Made by a program: the position numbers and the translations under genes | NCBI GenBank assembly: GCA_015494535.1 | Contig: WGBC01000026.1 | Location: 1-64,000 of the forward strand | DNA: 64,000 nt | Direction: 5' to 3' | From: Nitratiruptor sp. | Lineage (GTDB): Bacteria > Campylobacterota > Campylobacteria > Campylobacterales > Nitratiruptoraceae | The notes under the pieces: model-generated | What the model was told of the DNA's origin: nothing | Databases searched by the model: none | The model's input: the letters and a program-made list of their open reading frames with translations, nothing else | Shown: one piece after another, positions 15,339 to 21,655 of the stretch | How positions within the stretch are numbered: the first letter of the stretch is position 1 | Layout: each line of letters begins with the position of its first letter

Positions 15339-16052
15339 ATGATCATCATACCCGCTAGGCTCCAATCCACGCGCTTCGCAAAGAAGGTGCTCCATCCAAT
15401 CGACGGCGTGCCGATGGTGATAAAGACCGCGATGCAAGCGGCGAAAGTGGACGATGTAGTCATCGCCACGGATGCCCGGGAAGTAGTGGAAGTGGCTAAA
15501 AGATATGGCTTTGAGGCGGTGCTTACAAGCGTTGAACACAAAAGCGGGACAGATAGAATCAACGAAGCCGCAGCTATTTTGGGCTTGGATGAGGATGAAA
15601 TCCTACTCAACGTCCAAGCGGACGAGCCATTTATTGAGCCTGAAGTGATACAAAGCGTCTATACCCTTACCCAAAAGCATATCCACCAAGCCGATATAAT
15701 GATGTGCAGTGCCTACAAGAGTGCTCCTTTACCTCCAAAAAACGATCCCAATAGCGTCAAAGTGGTGGTAGATGGGGCTGGGCATGCGCTCTATTTCTCC
15801 AGATCTCTCATTCCCTATCCAAGAGAGTCGATGGATGTAATCAAGATCCATCTTGGGATTTATGGCTATAGCAAGAAGATGCTACAAAGATTTTGCTCTT
15901 TAAAAACTGCACCTTTAGAGGATATCGAAAAGCTCGAGCAGCTGCGAGCACTCTATCATGGTTACAGAATCGCTATGCAAGAAGTGCAATCAAGCAGCGT
16001 CGGAATCGATACGATCGAAGATCTTCACAGAGCCCTCGGCAAGCGTGGCTGA
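15339..16052 (+). CDS. kdsB: 3-deoxy-manno-octulosonate cytidylyltransferase KdsB
   Basis: 237 residues. Activates Kdo with CTP to CMP-Kdo for lipopolysaccharide inner core synthesis in the cytosol. The N-terminal nucleotide-binding loop IIIPARLQSTRFAKKVL, VVIATDAREV and the NVQADEPFI metal motif are present. AAAGGG lies before ATG. The 3' end overlaps the convergent GGDEF-EAL gene by 63 bases, unusually long for this compact genome, and could allow transcript interference. Confidence 0.96.
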   Translation: MIIIPARLQSTRFAKKVLHPIDGVPMVIKTAMQAAKVDDVVIATDAREVVEVAKRYGFEAVLTSVEHKSGTDRINEAAAILGLDEDEILLNVQADEPFIEPEVIQSVYTLTQKHIHQADIMMCSAYKSAPLPPKNDPNSVKVVVDGAGHALYFSRSLIPYPRESMDVIKIHLGIYGYSKKMLQRFCSLKTAPLEDIEKLEQLRALYHGYRIAMQEVQSSSVGIDTIEDLHRALGKRG

Positions 16053-17531
16053 GGGTTTGCCGATAAAAAAGCCCTGCACATTTTCTATACCATAGGACGC
16101 CAAAATTTCTAATGTCTTTTTATCCTCTACAAATTCGGCGATCGTTTCAATCTGCATATATTTCGCAAAAACGGCGATACTTTTAAGCACGCGTCTCGCT
16201 CTTTCGTTATTTTGGAGCTGTTTGACGATGCTGCCATCGATTTTGATGATGTCGGGCTCTAGTGTGAGAAAATAACTGATGTTGGAGTAGCCGCTGCCAA
16301 AATCGTCTAGCGCTACTTTGCATCCAAGTTCGCGTAGATAATGGATTCGGTTGATGATTTTCTCGTCGTCCGTTTTCATCTCTTCGTTTTCCAAAAGCTC
16401 GAAAATGATATATTTTGTGAGATCTCTGTTTGCCAAGACAAGCTCTTTGATGCTTTCGAACAACTCGTCGTCGAAAAAGTCCGATTTATTGAAATTAACG
16501 CTAATGTTTACATGCTCTTTTTTGATGGTCTCGAAGGCTTTGACCACGATCTTCTTCGTAAACTCCCTATAGACATTGGTTTGGAAAATGGAGTATAGAA
16601 ATTGGTATGGATAGTAGATCCTCTCACCATCTTGCAGCCTCGCCAACGCCTCATATTTATCGATTTTGCCTGTTTTGATGTTGTAGATTGGCTGATAGTG
16701 CAATAGGATTTTGTCATCCTTAATAAGTTCTGTGATTTTTTGAAAAGGCAGATACCCTTTTGAGGCTTCTTCCTCGTCGAAATACCTGATGCAGTCCCTT
16801 CCGCTATGCTTGGCATGATACAAAGCGTTGTCGGCTTTTTTGAGCGCCTCGTTGAGGCTGCTATCTTTGTAGGCTACGAGATTCACGCCGATGGAGAGCG
16901 AGATTTGGATGGTGTTGCCGCTGCTTAGGGTAATTGGCTCAGCTTTTGCCCGCTTGTAGATACGCTCGAAAAGTTTTTTATAGTCTTTGTCCTTCTCCTT
17001 TTGCAAAATCAATAACAGCTCGTCTCCGCCATAGCGGATCAGAATATCGTCGTTTCTGATGTATTTGGCAATACGCTTGGATATCTCTATCAATACCTCG
17101 TCACCTGCCGCATGCCCGTATGTGTCGTTGATAACTTTGAAGTAGTCTATATCTATCATGGCTATGACGATCTTATCCAGTGCGACTTTGCCATGCAGCT
17201 TCTCCAGATAGGCTCTGTTATATATCTTTGTCAAAGGATCGATGAAATTGCGCCTATGCTCTCTATGCAAAAACATATATAAAGCCACTATCAACACGAA
17301 AATAGTGATAAAAAAGAGCAAAAGATACTGCAAAAAGGTTTTGAGCTCCATTAAGATCTCTTTGATGCGCAGATATGCGTGGGTGGAGAGATCCGCTACC
17401 AAAAACGTCTGGTAATCTTTGAAGATCTTGAGTGGATAGAGCATGGTTATCCATAGATTGTCTATCTTTTCTTGCAAAAATATTTTTGCGGTGTTGGATG
17501 CGAATGCCCTATCCCACTGATGCTCTTGCAA
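15990..17531 (-). CDS. GGDEF-EAL c-di-GMP protein, downstream part after an in-frame stop
   Basis: 513 residues open from TTG 17531, in the same frame as the fragment at 17577-17930 and separated from it only by a TAG at 17577-17579. The part holds the end of a periplasmic sensor, a second membrane helix (about residues 48-70), GGDEF with RYGGDELLLI and an upstream RNDD inhibitory site, then EAL with YEALARL, the ALDDFGSGYSN loop and KIDGSIVKQL. Both catalytic centres look intact, so it could make or break c-di-GMP if expressed. No ribosome site precedes TTG 17531, so independent translation is doubtful. Confidence 0.75.
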   Translation of the reverse strand: MQEHQWDRAFASNTAKIFLQEKIDNLWITMLYPLKIFKDYQTFLVADLSTHAYLRIKEILMELKTFLQYLLLFFITIFVLIVALYMFLHREHRRNFIDPLTKIYNRAYLEKLHGKVALDKIVIAMIDIDYFKVINDTYGHAAGDEVLIEISKRIAKYIRNDDILIRYGGDELLLILQKEKDKDYKKLFERIYKRAKAEPITLSSGNTIQISLSIGVNLVAYKDSSLNEALKKADNALYHAKHSGRDCIRYFDEEEASKGYLPFQKITELIKDDKILLHYQPIYNIKTGKIDKYEALARLQDGERIYYPYQFLYSIFQTNVYREFTKKIVVKAFETIKKEHVNISVNFNKSDFFDDELFESIKELVLANRDLTKYIIFELLENEEMKTDDEKIINRIHYLRELGCKVALDDFGSGYSNISYFLTLEPDIIKIDGSIVKQLQNNERARRVLKSIAVFAKYMQIETIAEFVEDKKTLEILASYGIENVQGFFIGKPSATLAEGSVKIFDRIDSDAA

Positions 17532-17576
17532 AGGGAAAAACTTCTGCCCGAAAATCCCCTTCTCGTCTTCGTTCAG

Positions 17577-17930
17577 CTACCCATCTGCAAGGTAGCGGTA
17601 GCCGCTATTGTCTTTGTAGATGATATAGACGTAGCGGTTTTCCTTGTTGATGAAGCTGCTCAAAAGCTTGTCAATCTCTACTTGTCTTTGCGGGTTTTCC
17701 CGCAGATAGGTGACGATGTTAGATGGAAGATGCAAAATCTTTTGGAAAAGCTTTTCTATGGTGTGCACGTCGTTGGCTATCTCTTGGACTTTTATCGATT
17801 GAAACTCTTTCGTAGTAGCTTCGATGACGCTATCGAAACGAATGTAGAGAAAAACGGTGAGGATAAAAAGCAGAAGGAGAAGATAGAGAAAATAAATATA
17901 CTTTTTAAGTGCTTTGTATCCCATTTTCAC
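17577..17930 (-). pseudogene. N-terminal sensor fragment of the GGDEF-EAL protein, cut by TAG
   Basis: 117 residues: a membrane helix (about 12-30) and the first part of a periplasmic sensor domain ending in YRYLADG, then TAG at 17577-17579. The frame continues directly with LNEDEKGIFGQKFFPL, which is plausible sensor sequence, so the intact gene would span 15990-17930 (646 codons). A single substitution (for example from TCG, TGG or CAG) explains the stop. It could be a real mutation, strain polymorphism, readthrough or an assembly error. Overlaps the upstream gene by 4 bases. Confidence 0.7.
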
Positions 17931-18355
17931 TCAATATACTTGCTATATTTCTGTGGCAACTCTATGCCAAAATCTTCAAGCCTGTTTTTGTTGAAGATGA
18001 TAGTGGGTCTTCCTTTTTGCCAAAAAAAGGCACCTATGATTTTGTCTTTGTTACTGATGAAATCACGGTATTTGGTGACGAAAATCTTGTGATCTTCTAT
18101 GCACTCTTTTGGTAGATGCTTCAATGTATCCACAAATAGTATATCGGCTTCCAAACAGTTATCAGTATAGCGATACTTTTTCACAAATTTTGGGATATCT
18201 CTATACTCTTTGGAGTCGATGTAGACTGCGGTATTGGAGAGGTTGTGATCGAGTAGATCCACGATGAGCGAAAAGAGGCTCGCTTTGAGTAAAACGGCGT
18301 TTGACACTGCAAAAATATAGGTAGATACGAGCAATATGGCTGCTAAAACTCTCAA
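17927..18355 (-). CDS. Periplasmic YfiR-like / binding-protein-like protein, 142 aa
   Basis: 142 residues with a signal peptide (MRVLAAILLVSTYIFAVSNA). The pattern near the end, PTIIFNKNRLEDFGIELP, resembles the last strand-helix of YfiR (DUF4154) and of small phosphate-binding-like proteins. In Pseudomonas YfiR is the periplasmic repressor of the diguanylate cyclase YfiN. Here the gene lies exactly between a TonB-dependent receptor and a GGDEF-EAL protein, overlapping each by 4 bases, so a role as periplasmic relay is a reasonable inference. Confidence 0.65.
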   Translation of the reverse strand: MRVLAAILLVSTYIFAVSNAVLLKASLFSLIVDLLDHNLSNTAVYIDSKEYRDIPKFVKKYRYTDNCLEADILFVDTLKHLPKECIEDHKIFVTKYRDFISNKDKIIGAFFWQKGRPTIIFNKNRLEDFGIELPQKYSKYIE

Positions 18356-20247
18356 AACTGATACTCCAATCCTACCAAAAATGTCCTATCAATCACGGAT
18401 ATATCATTAAGATGCAAAATTTGCGAGTGAATGATATCATAACCATAGTAATCGCTTTTGATCGCAGTGTCGAAAATATTGATACCCTTACAATAAAATG
18501 AAAGTTTATCGCTGTAGTCGTAGTTGATTGTGAAACTCACATCAATACCTGGTTTGGTATCTTTCGTCCACTTTCTATAGACGATAGCATTGTAGAAATC
18601 GAAATCTCCAAAACGTTTGTAGAGCACCGCATGGGCTCCATAGAGCTTCCTACTCTTACCGTTGCCATAATCTGGCTGTACCACAAAGGCATCTAATTCA
18701 ATTTTGTCGATAGGGTTGAAACGGTAGCGATATCTTAGATCCACGCTATCAAACACAATTGTATTGTCTATGTTGTATAGACGCATATTCTCAAGATCTC
18801 TGGCTATGAGATCCTTGGCTTTCATATGCGTATAAAGAAAAGAAAGATTTGCATTTTTGCCTTTTTTCTGCAACTCAAGAGCATAAATCCTGTAGTGCTG
18901 CGCTTGAAGCGTATTTTGCGATTGCGTCTCTATAAGCTCTATGGTGGATGGTTTGAAATCGCCATCTACCATGAAAAGCTTAGCTAAATACCCATAATCA
19001 TTATAGATATAGCCTAGACGAAACATATCTATATCATAATCCCGCACACCGCCATTGCAACTGTAGTTATCGTATTTATACGAAACAAAGGCTATATTTC
19101 TTTGATTGAAAAGATACTTGCTTTCCCCATAGCCGCTTAAAAGAAACTCTTTTGAGAACGGAAAATGGGATCTATCCACTCCATCGTAGCTGTTTTGCTT
19201 GAAAATAAAGCGCTTGAATCTACTTTTAAAGCCTAGGAGTAGATCCCATTTGGGCGTCAGGGAGCTCTGTTTCGCAATTTGTGCGTCAATAGTGGAGTTC
19301 TTTGCTTTGATGTGATGCTGTTTGAAAGGAAGGATATAAGGAAAGCTATCAATTGGCAGTACACCCAAGATATCCTTTGATTTTGCAAAAGAGTCGATGT
19401 CTGCATAAGTAACGTATAAATAGCAGTTCCATCCAGTTTGTACGTTTTTATAGCGTAGCCCTCCATAGATGGTCTGTACGTCCACATTGCCTTTTTGCGG
19501 ACTAAGATCGATAGCGTTGGCGGTGAAGGGCTTGAGGGAGACATCGCTTGCATAAAGCTCTGCTCTTAGATGGTTTTTGATGAGTTGAGCATAGAGGGTA
19601 GTAAAACGCTTATCTCTAGAAAGCGTTGTTTTTTGGTAATGGTATTTTTTCCTTTTGAGATCGCGGTGATTGGCATAGAAAAGGTATGAGAAATCCTCCA
19701 ACTCTTTGGCGCTAAAGAGCGTGATATCTTTTTGGCCATGGCTTCCGCCACTCATATCTATAGTAGTGATGTTTTCTCTTGAAGGCTCTTTTGTGTAAAG
19801 CTTGATGATGGCAATCGATGGCTCTGTTCCAAGGGTAAAAGATACCGCTCCTAGATATATCTCGATATGATCGATAAAGGAGAGATCCATCTCGGAAAAG
19901 ACTTGCAAACTATTGCCAAAGATGGCATCACTCGTCTCTTTGTCGTCTATATAGATCTTGATTTGATGCTCTTGCGTTGGCTGAAAAGGTGCATAGAGTA
20001 AATCGGTAAGCCCCTGGGCATCTTCGTTGTAGCGCATGAACGGGATACGCTCCAATATCTCTTTGAGCGATTTGATGCGCATACGATCGAGATCTTCTCT
20101 GGTATAAGTTATCACATACCCTGCGCTCTCTTGCTTCGTTTTGTTGCTGAGATCTTCAGCTTGTTGCAATTTACTAAGCAGTAGCGTCAAATCGCTTTGC
20201 TCGGCATATAGCGCAGCACCTAGAAGCAATATAGCCAAACGTTTCAT
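18352..20247 (-). CDS. TonB-dependent receptor-like outer-membrane protein
   Basis: 631 residues. Signal peptide (about 1-16), then a plug domain (about 40-160: GYVITYTREDLDRMRIKSLKEILERIPF and IKIYIDDKETSD), then a 22-strand-type barrel ending in FLVGLEYQF with a terminal Phe, the insertion signal. It is short for a nutrient receptor (usually 650-800) and I see no convincing TonB box, so it may be a sensor rather than an importer. Operon position before a YfiR-like protein and a GGDEF-EAL protein supports a signalling role. Confidence 0.82.
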   Translation of the reverse strand: MKRLAILLLGAALYAEQSDLTLLLSKLQQAEDLSNKTKQESAGYVITYTREDLDRMRIKSLKEILERIPFMRYNEDAQGLTDLLYAPFQPTQEHQIKIYIDDKETSDAIFGNSLQVFSEMDLSFIDHIEIYLGAVSFTLGTEPSIAIIKLYTKEPSRENITTIDMSGGSHGQKDITLFSAKELEDFSYLFYANHRDLKRKKYHYQKTTLSRDKRFTTLYAQLIKNHLRAELYASDVSLKPFTANAIDLSPQKGNVDVQTIYGGLRYKNVQTGWNCYLYVTYADIDSFAKSKDILGVLPIDSFPYILPFKQHHIKAKNSTIDAQIAKQSSLTPKWDLLLGFKSRFKRFIFKQNSYDGVDRSHFPFSKEFLLSGYGESKYLFNQRNIAFVSYKYDNYSCNGGVRDYDIDMFRLGYIYNDYGYLAKLFMVDGDFKPSTIELIETQSQNTLQAQHYRIYALELQKKGKNANLSFLYTHMKAKDLIARDLENMRLYNIDNTIVFDSVDLRYRYRFNPIDKIELDAFVVQPDYGNGKSRKLYGAHAVLYKRFGDFDFYNAIVYRKWTKDTKPGIDVSFTINYDYSDKLSFYCKGINIFDTAIKSDYYGYDIIHSQILHLNDISVIDRTFLVGLEYQF

Positions 20248-20606
20248 TTTCTCTTTTTTCCAATCTTTTGTCGTATGATTTGCTCTGCCGTGAGAGCCAC
20301 CTCTTTTTTTGACATTTTTTTATCATTTTTTTTCTCGATCTTGTCCTTATTATCGAGCTTTTTGCCAAATGTTTTATAAACGCTAAAAAGAATAAAAAAT
20401 ACAATGAGCAAATAGAACGCCCATTTGGCAATCAATACATAAGGCAAAAGGGCTACATTGTGCGATAGGCGCAGATACTCCACGATGTCGCGGTAGATAA
20501 ATTCTATGATGATAAAAAGCAGCAGTGCTATGAAGATTTTCAACAAAAGCTTGCGAAAGCGATAGATATAGGTCCAAATAAGTGCGGATTTGATTTGGCG
20601 AAACAT
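20244..20606 (-). CDS. Hypothetical membrane protein, 120 aa
   Basis: Not recognised. Two predicted membrane helices (about 20-38, LLLKIFIALLLFIIIEFIY, and 60-80, AKWAFYLLIVFFILFSVY) followed by a very lysine-rich cytoplasmic tail (85-120). Overlaps the TonB-dependent receptor start by 4 bases and follows the 80-aa gene by 9 bases, so it is inside the seven-gene operon. Function unknown. Confidence 0.7.
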   Translation of the reverse strand: MFRQIKSALIWTYIYRFRKLLLKIFIALLLFIIIEFIYRDIVEYLRLSHNVALLPYVLIAKWAFYLLIVFFILFSVYKTFGKKLDNKDKIEKKNDKKMSKKEVALTAEQIIRQKIGKKRK

Positions 20607-20615
20607 AATCTATCC

Positions 20616-20858
20616 TTAAAAAAGAGAGATCCCAAGTGCTGCAAGCAGGGCGATGAGCCCTTTGGTTTTGAGATCGTCGTAGAGCTTTTGGCGCTCATCT
20701 TCGTAGATGATAGCTAGCTCTTCTTGAGTGAAGTCATCAGGAGTTAGATGGTGCTGTGCCAATCTTGCTGCCACCCTCTTTTGCACCCTCTCTTCGATCG
20801 CGGAGAGTATCTTTTCTTTGAGGGATTTTGTGAGGTTAAATTTTTCCAAAAAACTCAT
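20616..20858 (-). CDS. Hypothetical protein, 80 aa
   Basis: Not recognised. 80 residues: amphipathic helices rich in Lys/Glu/Arg (residues 8-65) and a short hydrophobic C-terminus (GLIALLAALGISLF) that could insert in a membrane. Overlaps the permease gene by 4 bases. A tail-anchored helper is possible, without direct evidence. Confidence 0.65.
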   Translation of the reverse strand: MSFLEKFNLTKSLKEKILSAIEERVQKRVAARLAQHHLTPDDFTQEELAIIYEDERQKLYDDLKTKGLIALLAALGISLF

Positions 20859-21655
20859 AGTAGTTTCTCTTTCTTGTTGGTTATATTTTGTAGATAGTCG
20901 CTAATATTGATGAGTGAGTACGTTACCAAGAAGATCATGAGTCCTGGAAAAAAACTCACCCACCAAGCAATATCTATCACCTCTTTACCCTCACTCAAAA
21001 TCGATCCCCAACTCATCTGTGGTGGCAATACACCAAGCCCTAAGAAACTCAGTCCAGATTCAGCCAAAATCGCCCCACCCACTCCAAAGGTGAAACTGAT
21101 AAAAAAGATTGGCGCAATAAGGGGCGAAAAATATTTTAATATTATTTTATATGAAGGGTATCCCGCTATCTGCAATATCTTAATAAAGGGCTTTTTCGCA
21201 ATGGCGAAACTCTCGCTTCTAATCATCCTCGCACTCCCCATCCAGCCGGTGATGGAGATGACGATGATGAGCACCAAAGATGAAGCTTGCATATAGCTTA
21301 CAAGGGCCAAGAGCAAGAAAAACGTAGGAAAGGTGAGGAAGAGATCAACGATTATAACGAACCCCTTGTCCACCATCCCTCTAAAAAATCCGGCACTTAC
21401 CCCTGCAATGAGTCCAATCAAAGAAGCGATAATGGCACTACCTACTCCAATTATGAGGGAATTTTTGCCACCCTCTATGACTCTAGCCAAAAGATCGCGC
21501 CCTAACCTATCTGTCCCAAAGGGATGATCCAGTGATGGTGGCAACAGTATTGCATCGGGGTTAAGAGCGTAAGGAGAAACATGGTAGAAGATACTTCCAA
21601 AGAAGCTAAGAAAAACAATCAAAAGCAAAATCGTTATACTGCCTATTGGTTTCAT
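20855..21655 (-). CDS. ABC transporter permease, DppC/OppC type
   Basis: 266 residues, about six membrane helices. The HPFGTDRLGRDLLARVIEGG segment (about 44-63) and the EAA loop in the region of LKYFSPLIAP are signatures of the dipeptide/oligopeptide/nickel permease family (inner-membrane subunit DppC/OppC/NikC). No partner permease, ATPase or binding protein lies nearby, so the other subunits must be encoded elsewhere. Overlaps rsmD by 4 bases. Confidence 0.9.
   Translation of the reverse strand: MKPIGSITILLLIVFLSFFGSIFYHVSPYALNPDAILLPPSLDHPFGTDRLGRDLLARVIEGGKNSLIIGVGSAIIASLIGLIAGVSAGFFRGMVDKGFVIIVDLFLTFPTFFLLLALVSYMQASSLVLIIVISITGWMGSARMIRSESFAIAKKPFIKILQIAGYPSYKIILKYFSPLIAPIFFISFTFGVGGAILAESGLSFLGLGVLPPQMSWGSILSEGKEVIDIAWWVSFFPGLMIFLVTYSLINISDYLQNITNKKEKLL

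Follow-up and report, generated by a model that had tools for sequence, protein, structure and literature searches.

The closest described counterpart of the locus considered here is the YfiBNR system of Pseudomonas aeruginosa (HmsCDE in Yersinia), in which a small periplasmic protein, YfiR, stands between an outer-membrane protein, the OmpA/PAL-type lipoprotein YfiB, and an inner-membrane cyclic di-GMP (c-di-GMP) enzyme with a periplasmic PAS/Cache-type domain. It was described by Malone (2012) that the periplasmic YfiR-YfiN core is modular and occurs with variable inputs and outputs, including histidine kinases and GGDEF-EAL proteins, and mostly without YfiB, with no mention of TonB (PMC3375315). 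The unit analyzed in this work, found in a 64,000-nucleotide stretch of Nitratiruptor sp. contig WGBC01000026.1 (hereafter the window), comprises genes coding for a TonB-receptor-like outer-membrane protein, a small YfiR-like periplasmic protein and a membrane Cache-GGDEF-EAL protein. It is like YfiBNR in that an outer-membrane protein and an inner-membrane c-di-GMP enzyme are accompanied by a small periplasmic protein, whose predicted fold may be similar to that of YfiR, in the PAS/Cache-type periplasmic domain of the inner-membrane partner and in the interchangeable GGDEF-EAL and histidine kinase outputs (PMC3375315). It differs in its input, a TonB-receptor-like barrel instead of a lipoprotein, in the middle protein, which does not belong to Pfam DUF4154 and is without the two cysteine pairs conserved in YfiR, and in that no HAMP domain was found between the second transmembrane segment (TM2) and GGDEF. 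What would be new here is the receptor-driven version of YfiR-type signaling, the modular YfiR-YfiN core and the exchangeable outputs being already known; no paper describing a receptor-driven arrangement was found in literature searches on YfiR with TonB receptors.

Outer-membrane TonB-dependent receptors that pass a signal across the periplasm are known from FecA-FecR-FecI, and relays of this type use an N-terminal signaling domain, an anti-sigma factor and a sigma factor. The unit would resemble them in that an outer-membrane receptor signals across the periplasm, but no signaling-domain extension is apparent before the Plug domain of the window receptor, which starts at residue 38, and there is no linked sigma or anti-sigma factor gene. 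With TonB-dependent transporters, such as BtuB and siderophore receptors, the receptor shares the Plug domain and weak matches to the B12 and siderophore receptor models, but its family lacks a recognizable TonB box, matches the Pfam barrel model in only four of 44 members and is linked to signaling genes. A similar pair may already have names, as the NCBIfam 2026 models TOL_0243 (YfiR-like, NF053591) and TOL_0244 (TonB-dependent receptor, NF053590) bear adjacent locus tags, which indicate a YfiR-like gene beside a receptor gene, and look like the curators' names for both members of such a pair, on which no paper was found in the literature searched. Locus L091 from the same genus as the window, which carries a receptor-DUF4154-GGDEF-EAL unit, matches TOL_0243 as its best YfiR model (5.6e-20) and TOL_0244 (2.3e-23), both below the model cut-offs. 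The receptor of L033, a close relative of the window locus, matches TOL_0244 at E = 0.0092, also below the cut-off, and neither the window middle protein with TOL_0243 nor the window receptor with TOL_0244 gave a match at E ≤ 0.1.

When the small protein was used as the query, 46 of 100 genomes from the order proved to hold relatives at E ≤ 0.01, with a few weak matches among these, while in a phylum-wide sample of 200 genomes a match, in some cases weak, was obtained in 33. The receptor gene lies directly upstream of the middle gene and on the same strand in 51 of the 54 fetched loci, in 27 of which the two genes overlap by exactly 4 bases, often the same TTGA. An independent pattern scan of named genomes yielded 63 further loci, belonging to Campylobacterota and to two bins labelled Aquificota, with the receptor upstream in 61 of the 62 having enough sequence, so the condition under which the sequence-only reading would have been refuted, namely that the three genes are not kept together elsewhere, does not hold. 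The unit is thus conserved at more than 100 places in vent and sediment bacteria, while the flanking genes vary between its families and, among the flanks of the loci compared, no conserved kind of transporter gene accompanies it. Tree distances of the receptor, the small protein and the sensor domain correlate at 0.85–0.88. In genomes holding two or three units, paralogues were swapped within the genome in order to separate co-inheritance from species history, and the real pairing ranked 1 of 144 for every protein pair. The receptor, the small protein and the partner are inherited as matched sets.

The alignment of 44 members of the receptor family (REC) has invariant S34, T37 and G43. The Pfam Plug model matches 34 of the 44, and in the window receptor the match is above the Pfam cut-off. 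Identity to the window receptor is often 22–38% across the family, with several paralogues per genome. Eight related genomes hold 39 Plug genes. Inspection of 38 of them together with their flanks showed 17 to be linked to a YfiR-like gene and a c-di-GMP enzyme gene; the remaining one, G024:C1:526387, codes for the receptor of locus L071 and is likewise linked. The unlinked receptors of the same genomes are mostly 615–700 aa long, so the window receptor (631 aa) is not unusually short, contrary to what had been supposed. After the signal peptide they carry a short TonB-box-like stretch of the V-x-V type, where the REC family has LxxLLxxYxxESxLSKxTKxESAG. A strict TonB-box pattern was found in none of the 44 REC proteins and none of 14 receptors beside other YfiR-type genes, but in genomes outside the training set it recognized no more than 4 of 12 unlinked receptors, and a looser pattern was then added. 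The latter matched 21 of 21 unlinked receptors, a figure which is not independent because the patterns were fitted to unlinked receptors, and 3 of 38 REC proteins, in all three of which the match is the LDxLL motif itself. The supposed lack of a clear TonB box therefore extends from the window receptor to its family, the contrast with unlinked receptors being suggestive rather than proof.

The middle protein has a signal peptide, and the motif FFWQKGRP is highly conserved in its family (51 aligned members). Pfam DUF4154 (PF13689) was not among the families matching this alignment at E ≤ 0.1, and the PF13689 search gave matches in related genomes but none in genome G000, so the assignment of the middle protein to DUF4154 was rejected. 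A profile-profile comparison with canonical DUF4154 had a probability of 88, with at most 0.8 for shuffled columns, which dropped to 2.8 once the signal peptide was trimmed, and it was therefore discounted as support. In the Foldseek search with the AlphaFold model (pLDDT 94), the best matches were labelled substrate-binding proteins (6k1y, 3lkv), ahead of the YfiR chains, which were also among the top matches with a probability of up to 0.98, TM-scores of about 0.5 and E above 0.01. YfiR itself resembles the lobes of binding proteins, yet it represses by protein contact (PMC4655355). As to the two conserved YfiR cysteine pairs (PMC4655355), the window protein has two cysteines and its paralogue in L062 none. 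Searching the PDB by sequence with the profiles of the middle protein and of the sensor returned nothing useful. The protein may be called YfiR-like by its predicted fold and genomic context rather than by proven homology; the resemblance to YfiR claimed earlier is apparent in these two respects and fails at the level of the Pfam sequence models.

Most DUF4154 or near-DUF4154 genes in the same order adjoin Plug/barrel receptor genes and genes for GGDEF(-EAL) or other signaling proteins. Loci L096–L105 harbor a second YfiR-like subfamily (about 170–195 aa), which for the most part scores near or below the cut-off of DUF4154, in the receptor and GGDEF(-EAL) context, and their receptors have an N-terminal motif of their own, SEIAxxTKxNIDKTP.

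The gene downstream of the small protein codes for a GGDEF-EAL protein in most loci, for GGDEF alone in others and for a histidine kinase in several, so that the output is not always a c-di-GMP enzyme. When scored against the profile of the GGDEF-EAL partners, the first ~200 residues are homologous across all three types (5e-36 to 9e-76), with one kinase, L075, left undetected by this profile. The sensor region of L033, whose enzyme gene is intact, is predicted to have a single-Cache fold (pLDDT 93.7), and the model matches the sensor domains of WalK, KinD and chemoreceptors. As the homologous sensor is joined to differing outputs, the constant core consists of the receptor, the small protein and the Cache domain, and the outputs are exchangeable. 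L082, L083 and L084 have a histidine kinase as the partner, followed by a gene with an EAL domain, whose product in L082 is of the response regulator-PAS-EAL type according to Pfam, and the output of these units may still reach c-di-GMP through a phosphorelay.

Gene linkage, co-inheritance, the Cache domain shared by different outputs, the predicted folds and the lack of a TonB box form the basis for reading the unit as a signaling device leading from the outer membrane to the cytoplasm, a variant of the YfiBNR type with a receptor barrel in place of YfiB, which we consider somewhat probable. As to the protein contacts, the direction of control and the ligand, we infer that the receptor barrel would sense a ligand or the state of the outer membrane and pass the signal, via its periplasm-facing plug and the conserved N-terminal segment, to the small YfiR-like protein. 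The latter would bind the inner-membrane partner at its periplasmic single-Cache domain and set the output of this partner, which would be c-di-GMP synthesis or breakdown in most loci and histidine kinase activity in others. The YfiBNR precedent suggests that the small protein would most likely repress the partner and, upon engagement of the receptor, be retained at the outer membrane. The parallel to YfiBNR drawn in the sequence-only reading thus gains from the conservation, the shared Cache domain, the co-inheritance of paralogues, the DUF4154 context and the missing TonB box; it loses by the internal stop described below, the position of the middle protein outside the Pfam family of YfiR and the histidine kinase outputs of some loci. 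As a tentative extension, the 17 linked receptors out of the 38 TonB-receptor-like proteins in the eight Campylobacterota genomes could be TonB-independent signal receptors and not importers, with the N-terminal LSxxTKxESAG segment engaging YfiR-type relays that switch Cache-domain enzymes or kinases, a logic which might be common to several YfiR subfamilies including canonical DUF4154.

Several observations weigh against the relay: the TM-scores of the middle protein to YfiR are only about 0.5, the DUF4154 profile match is lost on trimming, the TonB-box patterns were fitted, there is no HAMP among the Pfam matches of 32 GGDEF-EAL partners, the unit has no OmpA-type lipoprotein, unlike YfiBNR, and the enzyme gene of the window itself is interrupted. 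In addition, the receptor and the small protein occur without an adjoining sensor enzyme in L044, L118, L120 and L121, and the small protein and the enzyme without a receptor in L034, L047 and L128. The main rival is nutrient sensing, in which the receptor would be a genuine importer and the middle protein a one-lobe substrate-binding protein presenting the imported ligand to the Cache domain, similarly to the binding proteins serving some chemoreceptors. The rank of 6k1y and 3lkv before YfiR among the fold matches, the small ligands often bound by Cache domains and the presence in the window genome of a gene for ExbD, part of the TonB energy system, are in line with it; given that YfiR shows the same fold likeness and yet acts by protein contact, that the TonB box missing in the linked receptors is found in the unlinked ones of the same genomes and that no conserved transporter genes accompany the unit, it is held to be rather unlikely. 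Still less probable is that the barrel reports on outer-membrane assembly or on envelope stress instead of a ligand, with the middle protein as the relay; YfiBNR was indeed proposed to answer envelope stress (PMC3375315), but the diversity of the receptor family and its several paralogues in each genome suggest different ligands and not a single shared state. In the window the unit is part of an extended series of genes that overlap and are read in one direction, from 21655 downwards, as would be expected if the three genes were neighbors by chance or in a generic operon without functional coupling; this is hardly credible and was rejected, because the receptor adjoins the small-protein gene in nearly all loci of both sets, more than 100 loci keep the unit while the flanks change, and the paralogue swaps show that the sets are co-inherited.

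For the window copy itself a further explanation has to be weighed, namely decay of the unit, with a third gene that has ceased to give a membrane-anchored enzyme. All three genes had been noticed in the sequence-only reading of 15990–20247 and are present, but the third is not a single open frame: a TAG codon splits it into pieces of 117 and 513 aa, whereas intact homologues are 618–650 aa long. The description of this protein as a membrane c-di-GMP enzyme with a periplasmic sensor is right as far as its Cache, GGDEF (9.8e-40) and EAL (1.3e-53) domains are concerned, the last two detected with Pfam, but not for an uninterrupted product. At the position of TAG, intact relatives have a serine within YRYLADGS/YRYLLDGS, encoded by TCN codons in the closest ones, and recoding of TAG (as pyrrolysine or otherwise) was set aside on this ground. 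The window protein also has GGDEL where 32 of 32 aligned intact relatives have GG[D/E]EF, the codons differing by two bases from the GAG-TTT of close relatives; the RxxD I-site and the conserved EAL residues are retained. Besides this change and the stop in a conserved serine codon, the clean loss of the receptor from a related locus (L034) speaks for decay, under which the 513-aa piece, if expressed, would lack the first transmembrane segment (TM1) and half of the sensor domain. On the other hand, the other 48 of 49 invariant columns are unchanged and there is no frameshift, so the stop either arose recently or is due to an error of assembly, and a single wrong base is possible, the genome (1.4 Mb) being a draft of 112 contigs with 79% completeness. 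Decay is given an even chance; owing to the internal stop, the window enzyme copy is probably either broken and inactive or mis-assembled.

The features of the window locus are listed in Table 1. Both overlaps are exactly 4 bases long, as had been noticed from the sequence: at 18352–18355 the TTG start of the middle gene overlaps the receptor stop as TTGA, and at 17927–17930 the GTG start of the third gene overlaps the stop of the YfiR-like gene. The receptor ends in ...YQF, by inspection an outer-membrane beta-signal.

Table 1 Features of the three-gene unit in the window.
Feature	Position	Strand	Details
Receptor gene (REC), TonB-dependent-receptor-like outer-membrane protein	18352..20247	-	631 aa; Pfam Plug
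Plug domain of the window receptor	residues 38-141		Pfam 9.6e-6
N-terminus of the window receptor, LxxLLxxxxxxxDLSxxTKxESAG at the TonB-box place			Family alignment and TonB-box pattern scans
Middle gene, periplasmic YfiR-like protein	17927..18355	-	142 aa; signal peptide; TTG start; conserved FFWQKGRP motif
Third gene, membrane Cache-GGDEF-EAL protein	15990..17930	-	646 codons with read-through of the internal TAG; GTG start
Third gene, fragment up to the TAG: TM1 plus the first half of the periplasmic Cache domain	17577..17930	-	117 aa; sensor HMM 5.4e-24
In-frame TAG codon at conserved Ser position	17577..17579	-	Translation and alignment of relatives
Downstream fragment of the third gene: rest of Cache, TM2, GGDEF, EAL	15990..17531	-	513 aa; sensor HMM 8.7e-33

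The unit closes a series of co-directional genes (15990–21655), most of which overlap and which code for a permease-like protein, proteins of 80 and 120 aa, the receptor, the YfiR-like protein and the enzyme. At its 3′ end the unit shares 63 bases with a convergent cytidylyltransferase gene. A second, paralogous and intact unit (L062, contig C98) is present in the same genome and is preceded by genes for a response regulator and a histidine kinase. Many units of the family, namely L062 (4059–5935), L045, L049, L059, L061, L068, L078 and L081, have such a pair immediately upstream of the receptor gene, which suggests transcriptional control or a second input for the unit.

Some loci depart from the common arrangement. 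In L044, L118, L120 and L121 the gene following the YfiR-like one codes for a HAD-type hydrolase (checked with Pfam for L044) in place of the sensor enzyme. In L034 (4940–5021) the receptor gene is gone, and about 70 bases now separate the YfiR-like gene, which like the enzyme gene is intact, from its upstream neighbor. L041 (5088–5507) is a lone YfiR-like gene just upstream of motA/motB-looking flagellar motor genes, with no adjoining receptor or enzyme gene, while L037 (2136–5881), from Sulfurimonas indica (L109), has two tandem receptor genes with a 4-base overlap, followed by one YfiR-like and one GGDEF-EAL gene. The unit of L178, with a 485-aa partner, is carried by a metagenome bin titled Helicobacter pylori PMSS1, a label which is probably wrong.

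The outer-membrane signal received by YfiR-type systems is poorly known, and a receptor barrel as a fixed partner provides a concrete input that makes ligand screening feasible. The missing TonB box together with the LSxxTKxESAG motif offers a testable sequence mark for telling sensors from transporters. If the proposed relay is true, many annotated TonB-dependent transporters in vent and sediment bacteria would be sensors setting biofilm or motility decisions.

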